Below, in pieces: positions 26,469 through 31,930 of a DNA stretch of 31,930 bases. The stretch is taken from contig DDSR01000037.1 in the NCBI GenBank assembly GCA_002343455.1, positions 1 to 31,930 on the forward strand, written 5' to 3'. Position numbers and translations under genes: made by a program. How positions within the stretch are numbered: position 1 is the first letter of the stretch; every line of letters starts with the position of its first letter. The DNA is from Deltaproteobacteria bacterium UBA2385. GTDB lineage: Bacteria > Myxococcota_A > UBA796 > UBA2385. A model generated the notes under the pieces. That model searched no databases and was not told the origin of the DNA. It worked only from the letters and a program-made list of their open reading frames with translations.

Positions 26469-27884
26469 TCAGCCCCAGCGCTCCAGGTACTCCCGCAATC
26501 GAAGCTTCCTGGCAGTGTTCTCCGAGCTCATGTAGCGGACGGTGCCGAAGATCGGCCGCCTGGGGCCCCAGGGGCGGTCGTAGCGGCCGAAGACCCAGCC
26601 GACGCCGGCGAGGGTGTTCGGGTCGCGGCCGTCGAGGGCGTAGCGGTCGTTGAGGTGGACCAGGATCTCGAAGGCGCGGCGCGGGTCCTCGCTCCACTCC
26701 AGCACCCGCTTGCCCCAGAGCATGCGCAGGTAGTTGTGCATCCGGCCGCTCTCGCGAAGCTCGGCCTGGGCGGCGTTCCAGAGGGGGTCGTGGGTGAGGC
26801 CCGCGTCGAGCTCTTCGAGGCTGTACAGGGCCGGGCGGGGGTCGGCCCGGTGCTCCTCCAGGCTCTGCTGCGCCCAGGCGGGGGTGGCCTCGTAGGACTC
26901 GTAGCCAGGCAGAAAGGCGGCGCCGTTCAGCGCCAGCTCCCGCCAGGTGATGAGCTCGTCGAGGAAGGACTCAGCGGCCTCCGGCAAGCCCCACCAGCCC
27001 TCGCGGCTGGCGTTCACCTTGCCGAAGGTGGGCGGGCCAACCCGGTCGAGCAGGGCGGCGTAGACCTCGCCGGCGCCGACCTGGCCGTAGTGCAGGTATG
27101 GCGAGAGGCCGCTGCCACCGCCGCCGTCGGGCTGATTGCGCTCCAGGTAGGAGGGCAGGCGGTCGAGGAAGCGGTCGAGGCGAACGCGACCGGCGACCGA
27201 GCCGCCGCGCTCGGCGACGGGCGAGACGCTGTGGTCGATCGGCAGGTCCTCGACCCGGCCGGCGAGGCGCTCGGCCGAGGCGGGGCGCAGCCAGGCGGGG
27301 ACGGTGGCGGGCGGCAGGTCGACGCCGGCGAGGGGATCGGCCTGGGGCAGATGCGCGAGGTGGGTGGGCAGCGTCTTCTGCAGGAAGCGTCGGAAGTCGA
27401 CGGCGCGGCCGTAGGCCTTGTCGGCAGCGCGGACGGGCAGCAGGCCGGCGCTGTCGACGGCCTCCATTCGGATCGGCAGGCGGGCGGCGGCGGCCAGCAT
27501 CCGCGGGTGGAAGAAGCCCGGCCAGTCGTCGGTGACCAGCAGGGCCGCGTCCTGCGCGAGGCGGGCCAGCAGGCCCTTGCCCTCTCCCGGGCGGGACTCG
27601 ACCCAGGGCAGGTAGGTGACCGCGCTGTCGGCGAAGGCCCGGGCGTTGTCGGCCATGCCGTCCAGCACGAAGCGGTGGTGGCGGTCGCTGGCGTGGGGGT
27701 ACTGCAGCCGCAGGCCCTCCAGCACGAGCAGCGGCGCGCCGAGCTCCCGCGCCCGAGCGACGGCGTGCTGCAGGGCGTGGTTGTACCGGCGGCGGCGGTT
27801 GGCCGTCATCCAGTAGAGGACGTAGCGGCCCGGGCGAGGGGGCAGCGGGTTGAGGAGGCGCAAGCGGGCGGGGTCGAGGGCCAT
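26469..27884 (-). CDS. phr: Class II CPD photolyase (deoxyribodipyrimidine photo-lyase)
   Basis: 471 residues, the usual length. Light-driven, FADH-dependent repair of cyclobutane pyrimidine dimers in DNA. Class II hallmarks are clear: the start YVLYWMTANRRRRYNHAL (residues 21-38), the FAD/DNA-binding LSPYLHYGQVG and LITWRELALN, DPLWNAAQAELRESGRMHNY, LRMLWGKRVLEWS, HLNDRYALDGRDPN and the final GVGWVFGRYDRPWGPR. This distinguishes it from class I (E. coli type) enzymes. Start ATG 27884 has no strong ribosome-binding site. It lies 30 bases after the stop of the TIGR04552 gene on the same strand, so it is probably second in an operon. Confidence 0.96.
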   Translation of the reverse strand: MALDPARLRLLNPLPPRPGRYVLYWMTANRRRRYNHALQHAVARARELGAPLLVLEGLRLQYPHASDRHHRFVLDGMADNARAFADSAVTYLPWVESRPGEGKGLLARLAQDAALLVTDDWPGFFHPRMLAAAARLPIRMEAVDSAGLLPVRAADKAYGRAVDFRRFLQKTLPTHLAHLPQADPLAGVDLPPATVPAWLRPASAERLAGRVEDLPIDHSVSPVAERGGSVAGRVRLDRFLDRLPSYLERNQPDGGGGSGLSPYLHYGQVGAGEVYAALLDRVGPPTFGKVNASREGWWGLPEAAESFLDELITWRELALNGAAFLPGYESYEATPAWAQQSLEEHRADPRPALYSLEELDAGLTHDPLWNAAQAELRESGRMHNYLRMLWGKRVLEWSEDPRRAFEILVHLNDRYALDGRDPNTLAGVGWVFGRYDRPWGPRRPIFGTVRYMSSENTARKLRLREYLERWG

Positions 27885-27914: not shown

Positions 27915-29093
27915 CTACTCCTCGCCGGCCGAGGCGGGCTCGCGGGCCGGGCGGTGCCGCCGGTAGCGGCCCCCCTTGCGCAGGCGGCTGGCGACGATCT
28001 CGCGCTGGCGCTCCTTGTACAGCTCGTGGGCGGCGTCGCCCTGCTCGTTGGACTCGGCGGTGCGCACGTCGACCAGCTGGAACTCGACCAGCACGAAGAC
28101 CACCCTGCCAAGCATCGCCCCGTGCCGGGCGTGGCCGAGGTGGTCGATGCGCACCGGGAAGTCGGCGATGAAGTTGACCACCCGGTAGCTCTTGCCCGAG
28201 AAGGGGTTCTCCTCGGACAAGAAGGGCGGATCGGCCTCGGCCGTGAAGGCCTGCAGCTGCGCGGCGATGTCCCGGTAGCCAGGCTTGGAGAGCTCCTGCT
28301 GCAGGTCGAGCAGGTTGTTGTGGCTCTCGCCGGGGATGACGTAGTTGAAGGCGAGCAGGTTGCGGGTCAGCCAGGCCAGGGCCGGCAGGATGTGGGCCCG
28401 CTCCTGGGTGACGATGCGAAAGCGCAGCTTGTCGAAGACCGTCGCCGCCGTGGCCTCCTTCTTGGCCAGCAGCTTGGTGATGATCGAGTTGCGGGGCTTG
28501 CGGTTGCCGTAGAAGCTGACGATCGGGAAGCCCTCGGCGCGCATGCGCTCGGCCGCGTCGTAGATGCGGCGCTCGGCCAGCTCCAGCAGGTCGGCCTCGG
28601 ACAGCGCCGACTGGAAGCGCAGCTCGGCGGCTTCGAGGTGGGCGATCGTGTGCATCAGCTTGAGCACCACGCAGGCCAGGATCTGCCGCCGCCGGAAGCC
28701 GCCGGTCTGGCTGGCCATCAGGAAGATCTCCCGCACATCGGCGGGGTCCTTGATCTCGGCCGGGAAGCGCAGGTGCAGGTGCTCTTCCAGGTAGCCGATG
28801 GCCTGCCGGTGGACGTAGTCGATGCGTCGCCGGTCCTCGGGATCCGACCAGTCCAGCCGGTGAAGCCGCAGGTAGTGCTCGACCGCGGGCAGGTCGGCGA
28901 AGACCGCGCGGTTCCAGTCGATGACGCTGTTGCCGCGCAGGACCAGCCGGACCGCCTCGAGGTCGGCGAGGTCCAGCTTCATCCCCGCGGGGAGGCCCTG
29001 CACGCTGGCGTGGAGGTCCAGCTGGCCAGGCTCGTCATTGGCAGCGTCGCTGCTGGCATCGATCTTCTGCGCGGACGAGCGGCTCTCGGTCAC
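27915..29093 (-). CDS. TIGR04552 family protein with RelA/SpoT synthetase-like signatures
   Basis: 392 residues from GTG 29093-29091, with GGAGGGAG six to seven bases upstream. LEAVRLVLRGNSVIDW, REIFLMASQTGG and FNYVIPGESHNN match what I know as TIGR04552, a family with no assigned function. The second half carries residues at RelA/SpoT synthetase spacing: NRKPRNSIITK (Arg198, Lys199, Ser203, Lys207), FDKLRFRIV (Asp221, Arg226), GKSYRVVNF (Tyr303), VEFQL (Glu337, Gln339) and, nineteen residues after Glu337, AAHELYK ending the motif (His356). In RelA these are R-x-K-x3-S-I-x2-K, D-x4-RIV, GY-x-SxH, E-x-Q-x-R-T and AAHxxYK. The catalytic Asp and Glu are present, while RT after Q-x is V-D here. 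No HD hydrolase, TGS or ACT domain. Family sure; nucleotide chemistry inferred. Confidence 0.85.
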   Translation of the reverse strand: MTESRSSAQKIDASSDAANDEPGQLDLHASVQGLPAGMKLDLADLEAVRLVLRGNSVIDWNRAVFADLPAVEHYLRLHRLDWSDPEDRRRIDYVHRQAIGYLEEHLHLRFPAEIKDPADVREIFLMASQTGGFRRRQILACVVLKLMHTIAHLEAAELRFQSALSEADLLELAERRIYDAAERMRAEGFPIVSFYGNRKPRNSIITKLLAKKEATAATVFDKLRFRIVTQERAHILPALAWLTRNLLAFNYVIPGESHNNLLDLQQELSKPGYRDIAAQLQAFTAEADPPFLSEENPFSGKSYRVVNFIADFPVRIDHLGHARHGAMLGRVVFVLVEFQLVDVRTAESNEQGDAAHELYKERQREIVASRLRKGGRYRRHRPAREPASAGEE

Positions 29094-29205
29094 TTCGACT
29101 CCCTCCCCTTCCCATAGCCCACCTCTCCCATAGCCCGGCGCCTCTCGCGCTGTACACGAGTTCGGTCGCTTGCCCCGAGCCGAGCGGATCGTTAGCGGCC
29201 AGCCC

Positions 29206-29970
29206 ATGGCCAAGACCAGCACCATCGGCAATGTCGTCAGCGCGGTAGGCGGTGCCTTCGGGGCGGCCTTCTCAAGCATCACCGTGACCATCCCGGTGGT
29301 GCTGCTGATGGGCTTCGTGGCGGCCTCGGCCGACTATGCCCTCTTCCACTACCTGGGCGGCGGCGCCACCAACGACCAGGGCACCCTGATCAAGGTGATG
29401 CTGGCCTGGACCGGCGTGGCCCTGCTGCAGGAGATCTTCCTGGGCCCGCTGGTGGGCGCCATCGCCGTCTACCTGGGGCGCCTGCACAGCGCCGGGCAGT
29501 CCGCTGGGCTCTACGACGCCGTCAACTTCGGCATCGGCCGCTACGGCCGCCTCTTCGTGCCGCGGCTGATCGCCCAGCTCAGCATCCAGATCGGCCTCGT
29601 CCTGCTGCTCTTCCCGGGCATCATCTACATCAGCATGTACGCCTTCGTGGACTCGGTCGCCTGCCTCGAACAGAAGGTCTGGCCGCTGGATCGCAGCAAG
29701 GCCCTGACCCGCGGCCGCCGCGGCAGCATCGTGCTGATCTACCTGCCGGTGGCCATCGCCATGCAGGCGGTGGCCCTGCTCGAGCTGTGGGCGCTGGAGC
29801 ACGGAGTGCTGGCGCTCGGCCTGGTCTTCTCCGGCGTCTACCTGGTCTTCTTCTTGATCAACATCAGCTTCTACAAGCTGTACGAGGGCCGCACGGTCGC
29901 CCTGGCCGCCTCGAAGGCCGAGCAGCCCGCCGCCGCGCCGCCCGCCGCGGCGCCCGCCACCGACACCTGA
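29206..29970 (+). CDS. Multi-pass inner-membrane protein
   Basis: 254 residues from ATG 29206; a TTG at 29170 in frame is possible but less likely. About five to six membrane helices: SITVTIPVVLLMGFVAASAD (24-43), KVMLAWTGVALLQEIFLGPL (63-82), QLSIQIGLVLLLFPGIIYIS (124-143), IVLIYLPVAIAMQAVALLEL (175-194) and VLALGLVFSGVYLVFFLINI (201-220), then an Ala/Pro tail. The stretch FPGIIYISMYAFVDSVACLE followed by DRSKALTRGRRG resembles the membrane domain found in YciC-like and glycerophosphodiesterase-associated proteins ('PG...E...AL.RS..LTRG'); this is a weak similarity. No function assigned. It diverges from the TIGR04552 gene with 112 bases between starts, and mfd follows at once. Confidence 0.85.
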   Translation: MAKTSTIGNVVSAVGGAFGAAFSSITVTIPVVLLMGFVAASADYALFHYLGGGATNDQGTLIKVMLAWTGVALLQEIFLGPLVGAIAVYLGRLHSAGQSAGLYDAVNFGIGRYGRLFVPRLIAQLSIQIGLVLLLFPGIIYISMYAFVDSVACLEQKVWPLDRSKALTRGRRGSIVLIYLPVAIAMQAVALLELWALEHGVLALGLVFSGVYLVFFLINISFYKLYEGRTVALAASKAEQPAAAPPAAAPATDT

Positions 29971-29984
29971 GGTAGCCGCAGCTG
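29968..29984 (+). promoter_or_regulatory. Ribosome-binding site and CTG start of mfd
   Basis: TGAGGT at 29968-29973 overlaps the stop of the membrane protein gene and is eight bases before CTG 29982. In the mfd frame there is an upstream TAG at 29973, and no ATG, GTG or TTG until well inside the conserved N-terminal domain (a GTG near residue 49). CTG 29982 is therefore the best-placed start. Confidence 0.6.
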
Positions 29985-31930
29985 CGCGCTCCACCCGCTG
30001 CCTTCCTGCCCCAGCTCGCCTCGCTGCTGAGGCCGGGGCGCACCCTGGCCGGCCTGCCCGAAGGCGCCGCCGCCTACGGCCTCGCCCTGGCCGCCCGCCA
30101 GCACCGCCGCCTGCTGGTCGTCGTGCCCGGCCGCGACGACGTCGAGCGCCTTCGCCAGGACCTGGCCTTCTACCTGGACCAACCCGGCGATCCGCCCGTG
30201 CTGGACCTGCCCGCCGACGATGTGCGCACTTGGGACGGCGTCTCGCCTCACCCCGACATCCCGCGCCGCCGCCTCGCCCTGCTCGCCGCCCTCGACGCGG
30301 GCGCCCGGGCCCCCGAAGGGGCAGAGAGGGGAGCCGTCGTCGTCGCCTGCGCCCGCTCCTTGATGCACCGGGTCCTCCCCCCCTCGCTGCGGGCCTCGCT
30401 GCGGCTGGAGCTGCGCCCCGGCGCCCAGCTCGACCCGGTCGCCCTCTCCCGCACCCTGGCCGACTGGGGCTACCTCGCCGTCCACCAGGTCGAGGAGCCC
30501 GGCACCTTCGCCCGCCGCGGCGATGTGCTCGACGTCTGGGCCCCCGGTGGGGCCGAGACCGGCGGAGGCCCGCTGCGCCTGGACTTCTTCGACCAGGAGA
30601 TCGAGGAGCTGCGCGAGCTGCTGCCCGCCTCTCAGCGCTCCGGCGCCCGCCGCGCCCGCGCCACCCTCATCCCCGCCCGCGAGGCGATCATCAGCCCCGA
30701 GGCCCTCGCCCGCGCCTCCGCCCACATGGCCGAGGCCGTCGACCGCCTGGGGGGCGGCCAGGCCACCCGCCGCCGGGTCCTGGCCGAGCTGAAGGAGGGC
30801 CTCTGGTTCCCCGGGGCCGAGGACTACCTCGGCGCCCTGCACCCGCTGGTCCCCTTCCTCAGCGGCTGGCCGGCGCAGGCCCCGATCGTCCTGCTCGACC
30901 CGGTCGGCGTGGACGGCGAGCTGGAGCGCTTCCAGGCCCTCTACGAGAGCCGCTTCGAGGCCATCCCGGTCGAGCAGCGCCCCCCCGTCCTGCCCGAGGC
31001 CCGCTTCGTCGCCGCCTCCCTGGTGCGGACCGACCTCTCCCGCGCCGTGCGCGTCGAGCCCCTGGCCATCGACGACGCCCCCGACCTGCAGTGCCAGGAC
31101 AACGCCTCGCTGCGCGCCAGCCACGGCGAGCTCGCCCCGGTCGTCGCCCGCCTCTACGCCATGCTCGACGAGGGCTTCACGCTCGCCCTGGTCTGCGACG
31201 GCCGCTCCCGGGCCGAGCGCCTGCTGGCCCTCTTCGAGCCCCACGGCATCCGCCCGGCCGAGGCCCCCGTCGGACAGTTCGGCCCCCCCGGCACCGTCCG
31301 GCTCTGGCTGGGCGATCTGCGGACCGGCTTCCAGGCCCCCCGCGAGCGCCTCGCCGTCATCACCGCCGACGAGATCTTCACCGTCAAGGAGCGCAGCCGG
31401 GCCACCAAGGTGCCCGCCAACCTGCGCGAGGCCGTGCTCAGCAGCCACACGCAGCTCAAGCAGGGCGACCTGGTCGTCCACGTCCGGCACGGCATCGGAC
31501 GTTTCTTACGTCTGCGGCGCCTGGACCAGGGAGAGGTCGCCCAGGACTACGCCGAGCTGGAGTACCGCGACGGGGCGCGGATGTACCTGCCGGTCACCCG
31601 GCTCGACCAGCTCTACCCCTACCGGGCCGCGGGCGACATCCAGCCCCGCCTGGACCTCCTCGGCGGCGAGAGCTGGGCCCGGCGTAAACAGAAGGTCCGC
31701 GACCAGGTCCTGGCCATGGCCCACGAGATCCTCGAGATCCACGCCATGCGCCAGGTCGCGCAGGGCCACGCCTACGAGGGCGAGCCCGAGAGCTACCGCC
31801 TGTTCGTCGAGGCCTTCCAGTGGGTCGAGACCCCCGGCCAGCAGCAGGCCATCGACGAGGTCATGGCCGATCTGGCCGCACCCCGCCCGATGGACCGCCT
31901 GCTGGTCGGCGACGTCGGCTTCGGCAAGAC
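29982..31930 (+). CDS. mfd: Transcription-repair coupling factor Mfd (N-terminal part, cut by window end)
   Basis: About 649 of the usual 1,150 or so residues, open to the last base. Mfd removes RNA polymerase stalled at DNA lesions and recruits UvrA. Residues 1-480 are the UvrB-like N-terminal module (GLPEGAAAYGLALAARQHRR; VLDLPADDVRTWDGVSPHPD; VEEPGTFARRGDVLDVWAPG; LRLDFFDQEIEELR). Residues 492-550 form the CarD-like RNA polymerase-interaction domain (KQGDLVVHVRHGIGRF; YAELEYRDGARMYLPV; LDQLYPY). The helicase begins with FQWVETPGQQQAIDEVMADL and PRPMDRLLVGDVGFGK, where the window ends inside Walker A. The start appears to be CTG (see the separate entry). It is probably co-transcribed with the membrane protein gene upstream. 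Identity is secure. Confidence 0.94.
   Translation, partial: MRAPPAAFLPQLASLLRPGRTLAGLPEGAAAYGLALAARQHRRLLVVVPGRDDVERLRQDLAFYLDQPGDPPVLDLPADDVRTWDGVSPHPDIPRRRLALLAALDAGARAPEGAERGAVVVACARSLMHRVLPPSLRASLRLELRPGAQLDPVALSRTLADWGYLAVHQVEEPGTFARRGDVLDVWAPGGAETGGGPLRLDFFDQEIEELRELLPASQRSGARRARATLIPAREAIISPEALARASAHMAEAVDRLGGGQATRRRVLAELKEGLWFPGAEDYLGALHPLVPFLSGWPAQAPIVLLDPVGVDGELERFQALYESRFEAIPVEQRPPVLPEARFVAASLVRTDLSRAVRVEPLAIDDAPDLQCQDNASLRASHGELAPVVARLYAMLDEGFTLALVCDGRSRAERLLALFEPHGIRPAEAPVGQFGPPGTVRLWLGDLRTGFQAPRERLAVITADEIFTVKERSRATKVPANLREAVLSSHTQLKQGDLVVHVRHGIGRFLRLRRLDQGEVAQDYAELEYRDGARMYLPVTRLDQLYPYRAAGDIQPRLDLLGGESWARRKQKVRDQVLAMAHEILEIHAMRQVAQGHAYEGEPESYRLFVEAFQWVETPGQQQAIDEVMADLAAPRPMDRLLVGDVGFGK

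Follow-up and report, generated by a model that had tools for sequence, protein, structure and literature searches.

TIGR04552 proteins as probable divergent members of the RelA/SpoT synthetase superfamily

The stretch of DNA analysed here (the window), 31,930 nucleotides from Deltaproteobacteria bacterium UBA2385 (contig DDSR01000037.1), carries on its minus strand a gene of the TIGR04552 family (27915..29093, with a GTG start at 29093 and a stop ending at 27915) that encodes a protein of 392 residues. We favour the view that this protein belongs, as a divergent member, to the synthetase-domain superfamily of RelA/SpoT homologues (RSH) and that it is most likely an active ATP-dependent 3'-pyrophosphotransferase, a conclusion we hold with reasonable though not full confidence. 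A divergent RelA/SpoT nucleotidyltransferase fold had already been proposed in an earlier, sequence-only reading of the gene, and this proposal is now supported by sequence profiles, by an RSH-like predicted fold and by the invariance of the presumed catalytic residues Asp221 and Glu337, each found in 65/65 aligned relatives.

In the mechanism that we envisage, ATP-Mg would be bound through K199, S203, K207, D221, R226, E337 and H356, and an acceptor that need not be GTP or GDP would be positioned by Tyr303 and the greatly lengthened G-loop and receive, on its 3'-OH, the pyrophosphate donated by ATP. As a guess, control or placement of the enzyme may fall to its helical N-terminal domain and, in lineages that have it, to a membrane peptide encoded upstream. 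A family of no assigned function would thus gain a testable enzyme class. In many bacteria RSH enzymes govern decisions to grow or develop, and earlier changes of acceptor within this fold have produced toxins that modify tRNA as well as (p)ppApp synthetases. A branch that is chromosomal, has a modified acceptor loop and a novel domain, and in many lineages has a small membrane-peptide gene next to it would be relevant to stress sensing in social and predatory bacteria.

Homology to RelA/SpoT synthetases and the active site

The window protein scores 328 bits against TIGR04552 (cut-off 125) and almost as well, 306 bits, against TIGR04562 (cut-off 140). Both NCBIfam entries, which constitute its own family, are labelled merely 'TIGR04552 family protein'. 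Residue counts refer to the main alignment (A2) of 65 relatives picked for diversity, 26–85% identical to the window protein, which is composed of 52 of 59 locus proteins, the window protein and 12 of 120 listed family proteins; L008, L015, L018, L020, L022, L027 and L042 were left out as fragments or near-duplicates. Alignment A1 consists of the window protein and 54 of the 120 listed proteins, A6 of 6 loci and 19 of the 120 proteins in a second family listing, and A3 represents long RSHs by 20 of 30 RSH loci, the others being excluded for having their longest open reading frame (ORF) on the wrong strand (6) or as near-duplicates (4).

The Pfam family PF04607 (RelA_SpoT) is matched at E<=1 by 63 of the 65 members, with a best value of 1.9e-7; two of them (G036:C15 and G006:C25, the latter being L033) exceed its cut-off, and no other Pfam family is matched by more than two. 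When the family profile was compared with the Protein Data Bank (PDB), RSH synthetases made up 9 of the 10 matches at E<=10 (best 1.9e-4). Profile–profile comparison by hhalign with the 20 long RSHs gave 94.9%, rising to 95.9% (E 5.9e-9) for their synthetase (SYNTH) part, while the N-terminal domain, used as a negative control, gave 0.2%. The nearest folds to the predicted structure are RelP, RelQ and Rel, and the window protein is predicted to have the synthetase fold by which the RSH superfamily is recognised. Pfam's precomputed RelA_SpoT label is found on 6 of 120 proteins in one family listing and on 0 of 120 in another; as some members are thus already labelled, the RSH link has been latent in the databases, and no paper stating it was found in the literature searched.

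In line with the earlier claim, no HD, TGS or ACT domain was found by Pfam and hhalign. For the HD domain there was no Pfam match at E<=10 and the N-terminal hhalign value was the 0.2% given above, with structural comparison weak throughout; for TGS and ACT no Pfam match was obtained, and the protein stops about 20 residues past the SYNTH core. In having no HD match and no TGS or ACT domain it differs from the long RSHs (Rel/RelA/SpoT), one of which is separately encoded in its own genome, although it shares with them the SYNTH match and the motif spacings. Compared to RelP and RelQ (YwaC, YjbM), the window protein adds a helical N-terminal domain of about 150 residues, a longer G-loop and a second insert ahead of the E-x-Q strand, and does not keep the S-x-H and I-R residues.

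The N-terminal domain (residues 36–187, 28533..28988, minus strand) is predicted to be all helical, with a mean predicted local distance difference test score (pLDDT) of 82 when modelled alone. Among the 65 members S56, D59, C141 and H152 are invariant and H148 is found in 64; C141, H148 and H152 share one predicted helix (135–161), being spaced i, i+7 and i+11. No worthwhile match to this domain was found in Pfam, among PDB sequences or by structure comparison, and a metal- or redox-sensing role is our guess.

All residues named in the sequence-only reading are present at their positions: R198-K199-P-R-N-S203-I-I-T-K207, D221-K-L-R-F-R226-I-V, G300-K-S-Y303, E337-F-Q339 and A354-A355-H356-E-L-Y359-K360. 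The first of these lies in the donor-site motif R-K-x3-S-x3-K (residues 198–209, 28467..28502, minus strand), where K199, S203 and K207 align to Rel K243, S247 and K251, and is followed by the D-x4-R motif (residues 221–228, 28410..28433, minus), where Asp221 and Arg226 align to Rel D264 and R269. The C-terminal motifs (residues 337–363, 28005..28085, minus) comprise E337, Q339, D342 and H356-x2-Y359-K360-x-R362-Q363, all found in 65/65; here E337, Q339, H356, Y359 and K360 align to Rel E323, Q325, H342, Y345 and K346. K199, S203, K207, D221 and R226 are likewise identical in all 65 relatives, so that the signature does not arise by chance, while Y303 (62/65) and R198 (60/65) are less strict. 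Hence, of the four residues whose invariance had been put forward as a check, Lys207, Asp221 and Glu337 are strictly kept and Arg198 is not. The spacings K-S (4), S-K (4), D-R (5) and E-H (19) are identical to those of the profile-aligned Rel of S. equisimilis (1vj7), as had been stated earlier for E. coli RelA. The R-x-K-x3-S-I-x2-K pattern proposed for the donor site fits in its Lys, Ser and Lys and fails in its Arg, as the window protein has an R-K that is out of register; the column of Rel Arg241 is occupied by N197 in the window protein and by S (28), G (23) or N (8) among the 65.

According to the available part of a study of RelP (PMC5794853), the phosphates of ATP are bound by Lys80, Lys88 and Arg91, with Ser84 at the alpha-phosphate, Mg is bound by Asp107 and Glu174, the ribose by His190, adenine is stacked by Arg78 and Arg112, and Tyr151 of the G-loop binds the guanosine substrate. 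By motif, K199 corresponds to Lys80, S203 to Ser84, K207 to Lys88, D221 to Asp107, R226 to Arg112, Y303 to Tyr151, E337 to Glu174 and H356 to His190. By these correspondences the ATP/Mg side of the active site looks intact, the individual roles being assigned by analogy with the RelP, RelQ and Rel structures, and the family is probably catalytically active.

The acceptor side is different. From P-G255 to Y303 there are 48 residues in the window protein as against 14 in the Rel consensus, and the family's G-loop is extended by about 34 residues; the bulk of this expanded loop (residues 259–303, 28185..28319, minus strand) is partly poorly predicted in the model. The GYxSxH loop of the earlier proposal is retained in its Tyr (62/65), while its Ser (5/65) and His (22/65) are mostly replaced, the Ser column having V 33, M 12, I 11 and S 5 and the His column N 34, H 22, Q 7 and S 2. 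Similarly, E-x-Q-x-R-T survives in its Glu and Gln (65/65) and is lost in its last two residues: the Arg column has I, L, V or M in 62/65 and the Thr column Asp (Asp342) in 65/65, so that where Rel has I-R-T the family has two mostly hydrophobic residues and then an invariant Asp. Motif 2 is mostly R-F-R, with R224 in 59/65.

In the part of PMC12226406 that was available, adenosine enzymes are distinguished by R-Y-T, G-x-N and Y-H from guanosine enzymes with A-V-R, S-x-H and I-R, and swapping these signature motifs is reported not to have switched acceptor specificity. Set against the Apk signature (RYT in syn2, GxN in syn3, YH in syn4), the R-F-R, (V/M/I)-x-(N/H) and mostly hydrophobic pair of the family are a partial match at best, and since the family has R-F-R and N or H its acceptor signature is mixed. 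We infer, less surely than for the donor side, that the acceptor is bound in other than the canonical GTP/GDP way, and that an adenosine 3'-OH (in ATP or ADP, with (p)ppApp as product, or at the 3' terminus of tRNA or another RNA) is about as likely a target as guanosine.

Distribution and a small membrane peptide upstream

Among 282 genomes sampled from the phylum, 168 have a family member and six of these have two; at least 2396 database proteins belong to the family. It is mostly a single chromosomal copy, and none was found on plasmids in PLSDB. This distribution argues for an enzyme of the cell's own signalling or RNA modification more than for a mobile toxin-antitoxin module.

When small ORFs were inspected, a recurring short one was found beside the TIGR04552 gene. 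A profile built from 7 copies and iterated over 1.1 kb upstream of 98 loci matched 48 of them on the strand of the gene and none on the opposite strand; once duplicates were removed, 39 of 82 distinct loci had the peptide gene immediately upstream of the enzyme gene (examples are L090, L094, L099, L102 and, at 2075-2254, L142). The peptide has roughly 47 residues (range about 30–65), with a core ending like G-I-F-F-G-T-L-S-L-G-R, and longer forms have an initial hydrophobic segment, often with a lipobox-like A-G-C at its end. Pairwise comparison of ten copies across 40 codons (45 pairs) gave 464/225/1051 differences at codon positions 1/2/3, which is the pattern of a translated gene. A Pfam scan of 8 peptides gave one match to a lipid-attachment motif (0.0064) and, for the other seven, none at E<=1; apparently this is an undescribed membrane peptide without Pfam annotation.

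A scan of the same 282 genomes with 8 copies (alignment A8, chosen by eye from the profile matches) found the peptide in 46, one copy each. In 41 of these it begins 48–460 bases ahead of the TIGR04552 match, in the same orientation and often less than 100 bases away. It is located elsewhere in G036, G006, G061, G249 and G201; in the first three the two genes are on different contigs, and no TIGR04552 match was obtained for G201. Peptide genes stand alone in L139 (2939-3169), L140 (2896-3087) and L143 (389-670), and in L025/L028 and L041 other small membrane-like ORFs occupy, by eye, the peptide's place.

The arrangement suggests a membrane-coupled enzyme in the lineages with the peptide, which may act as anchor, switch or antitoxin. 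Tentatively, and as a reading that we consider rather unlikely in its entirety, TIGR04552/TIGR04562 may form a separate, membrane-coupled RSH branch that places pyrophosphate on a 3'-OH other than that of GTP or GDP (for instance at the end of a tRNA or other RNA, or on an adenine nucleotide) and recognises this target through its enlarged G-loop, and that is tethered or switched by the upstream peptide (lost or replaced in some lineages) together with a new helical sensor domain, where the invariant Cys141, His152 and Asp59 and the near-invariant His148 could bind metal or sense redox state. If true, myxobacteria and Bdellovibrio would have, in addition to Rel, a pathway that resembles the stringent response and is linked to the cell envelope.

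Weighing the alternative explanations

Several observations weigh against the reading of the family as active RSH synthetases, or against parts of it. The window protein itself reaches 18 bits against PF04607, under the cut-off of 27, a single-sequence PDB search with it gave no match, and a search of its own genome with the family profile missed the long RSH encoded there. The branch of L041-like proteins, taken alone, gave only 16.5% (E 0.0015) in hhalign and a best PDB value of E 0.07; all 25 sequences of this branch, 6 of which are also within the 65, keep the invariant motif positions, and in the three that were scanned TIGR04562 outscores TIGR04552. Whole-chain template modelling scores are 0.18–0.28, and the model is uncertain where it matters, with pLDDT <50 at residues 200–220 and 285–287. 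RelP Arg78, one of the two adenine-stacking arginines, has no in-register counterpart. The peptide was not found by profile in the window or its clade (43 of 82 distinct loci are without it), where the next gene upstream is a divergent one for a YciC-like membrane protein, and so it cannot explain the whole family. Finally, in the available part of PMC9888234, a small indel in the TIGR04552 gene of Bdellovibrio sp. NC01 is among 20 high-frequency mutations and exceeds 75% in one of six evolved lines; because of this rise the gene seems dispensable there.

That the motif arose by convergence in some unrelated fold resembling nucleotidyltransferases, such as that of polymerase beta, is very improbable and was already disfavoured, as the top 22 rows of the comparison are all RSH and the sequence profiles match RSH, not polymerases. 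We also think it improbable that the family is a catalytically dead RSH-fold binder or scaffold: the out-of-register arginine and the apparent dispensability in the one Bdellovibrio line would fit such a protein, but Asp221, Glu337 and the Lys/Ser/Lys set would not be preserved in 65/65 if the site were dead. Slightly less remote is a toxin-antitoxin pair, in which the enzyme would be a toxin silenced by the upstream peptide, a possibility that we do not favour. A gene upstream on the same strand, often so close, is a common antitoxin arrangement, and the 41 of 46 adjacent genome matches are in keeping with it. By way of comparison, for Phrann gp29/gp30 the available part of PMC9262239 proposes a model where a synthetase is kept silent by a partner protein. 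Against such a pair, the peptide is missing by profile from more than half of the distinct loci, the window included, the two genes are on different contigs in three genomes, and the family is mostly present as one chromosomal copy, with none on plasmids. With the toxSAS (CapRel, FaRel2) and the Apk (p)ppApp synthetases it shares the superfamily, residues of adenosine type at two of the three signature positions and, in some lineages, a small upstream gene; unlike them, it is mostly single-copy and chromosomal and was not found on PLSDB plasmids, its other signatures differ, and the small gene beside it, missing in many loci, encodes a membrane peptide.

The nature of the acceptor separates the two remaining alternatives. 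That the family is an ordinary (p)ppGpp synthetase with GTP or GDP as acceptor, the loop changes serving only to tune one more small alarmone synthetase with regulatory extras, has a substantial chance, short of an even one, of being right. RelP, RelQ and Rel are after all its closest folds, the G-loop Tyr is kept and the canonical His is present in 22/65, and L041-like members have a G-V-R form of motif 2, like YwaC. This must be set against the lengthened G-loop, the loss of the S-x-H Ser in all but 5 of 65 and the change of its His to N or Q in 41/65, the replacement of I-R-T, and the presence of a PF04607 protein both in its own genome and in 54 of 57 sampled genomes. We give almost the same chance to the alternative that the family acts on an adenosine 3'-OH, either as a 3'-pyrophosphokinase of tRNA or other RNA or as a (p)ppApp synthetase, in the manner of the translation-targeting toxSAS or the Apk enzymes though as a chromosomal regulator; the prevailing R-F-R and the Asn at the His column in 34/65 point to it when read with the signatures of PMC12226406, of which a part was available.

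Neighbouring genes and further RSH-like proteins

A photolyase gene (window 26469-27884, minus strand) lies 30 bases downstream of the TIGR04552 gene and is possibly co-transcribed with it; it is of a divergent type, as its match to TIGR00591 (phr2), 324 bits, is well under the cut-off of 550. The damage-related role that had been suggested on account of this neighbour is not borne out, a photolyase adjoining the gene in just 2 of 62 non-redundant loci. The repair gene mfd/TRCF is nearby in 15 of these 62 (divergent in 13), exclusively where the family protein is at least 46% identical to that of the window, and a YciC-like gene in 14. A divergent YciC-like membrane-protein gene and mfd/TRCF are upstream in the window (29170-31930) and in 14 other loci; L109 and L130 differ in having mfd downstream of the family gene and in its orientation.

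In other loci lon or a Ser/Thr kinase gene is near. A member of a Ser/Thr protein kinase cluster adjoins the gene in L007, L011, L013, L017, L019, L023, L024, L026, L029 and L090 (Pfam-checked for L007, L011, L017, L023 and L029), these being raw counts that include shared ancestry and the abundance of kinases in myxobacteria. The sole 'phage' match of the family is GenBank MW495066 (Microcystis phage MaAM05; 1-45000 and 117486-130583, L111 and L110). This entry of 274 kb carries rpsA, rplU, rpmA, rplK, rplA, secE, nusG, trpS, glyS and secF and looks like a fragment of a bacterial chromosome that was submitted under a phage name.

Further RSH-like proteins were noticed. An uncharacterised protein of about 410 residues with G-V-K, E-V-Q and S-H-x-S-F-K motifs is encoded in L119 (198-1454) and L120 (188-1405); its match to PF04607 is below threshold (for L119, 20.7 bits and E 5.3e-4), and it possibly represents a further cryptic RSH branch. 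L112-L115 encode short SYNTH-only proteins, with PF04607 scores of 118 and 124 bits for the two scanned and N-termini that are hydrophobic by eye, possibly exported alarmone synthetases like those of PMC12691689. The contig of L001 begins (about 1-240) with repeated units some 37 bases long, separated by short spacers, that look CRISPR-like by eye.
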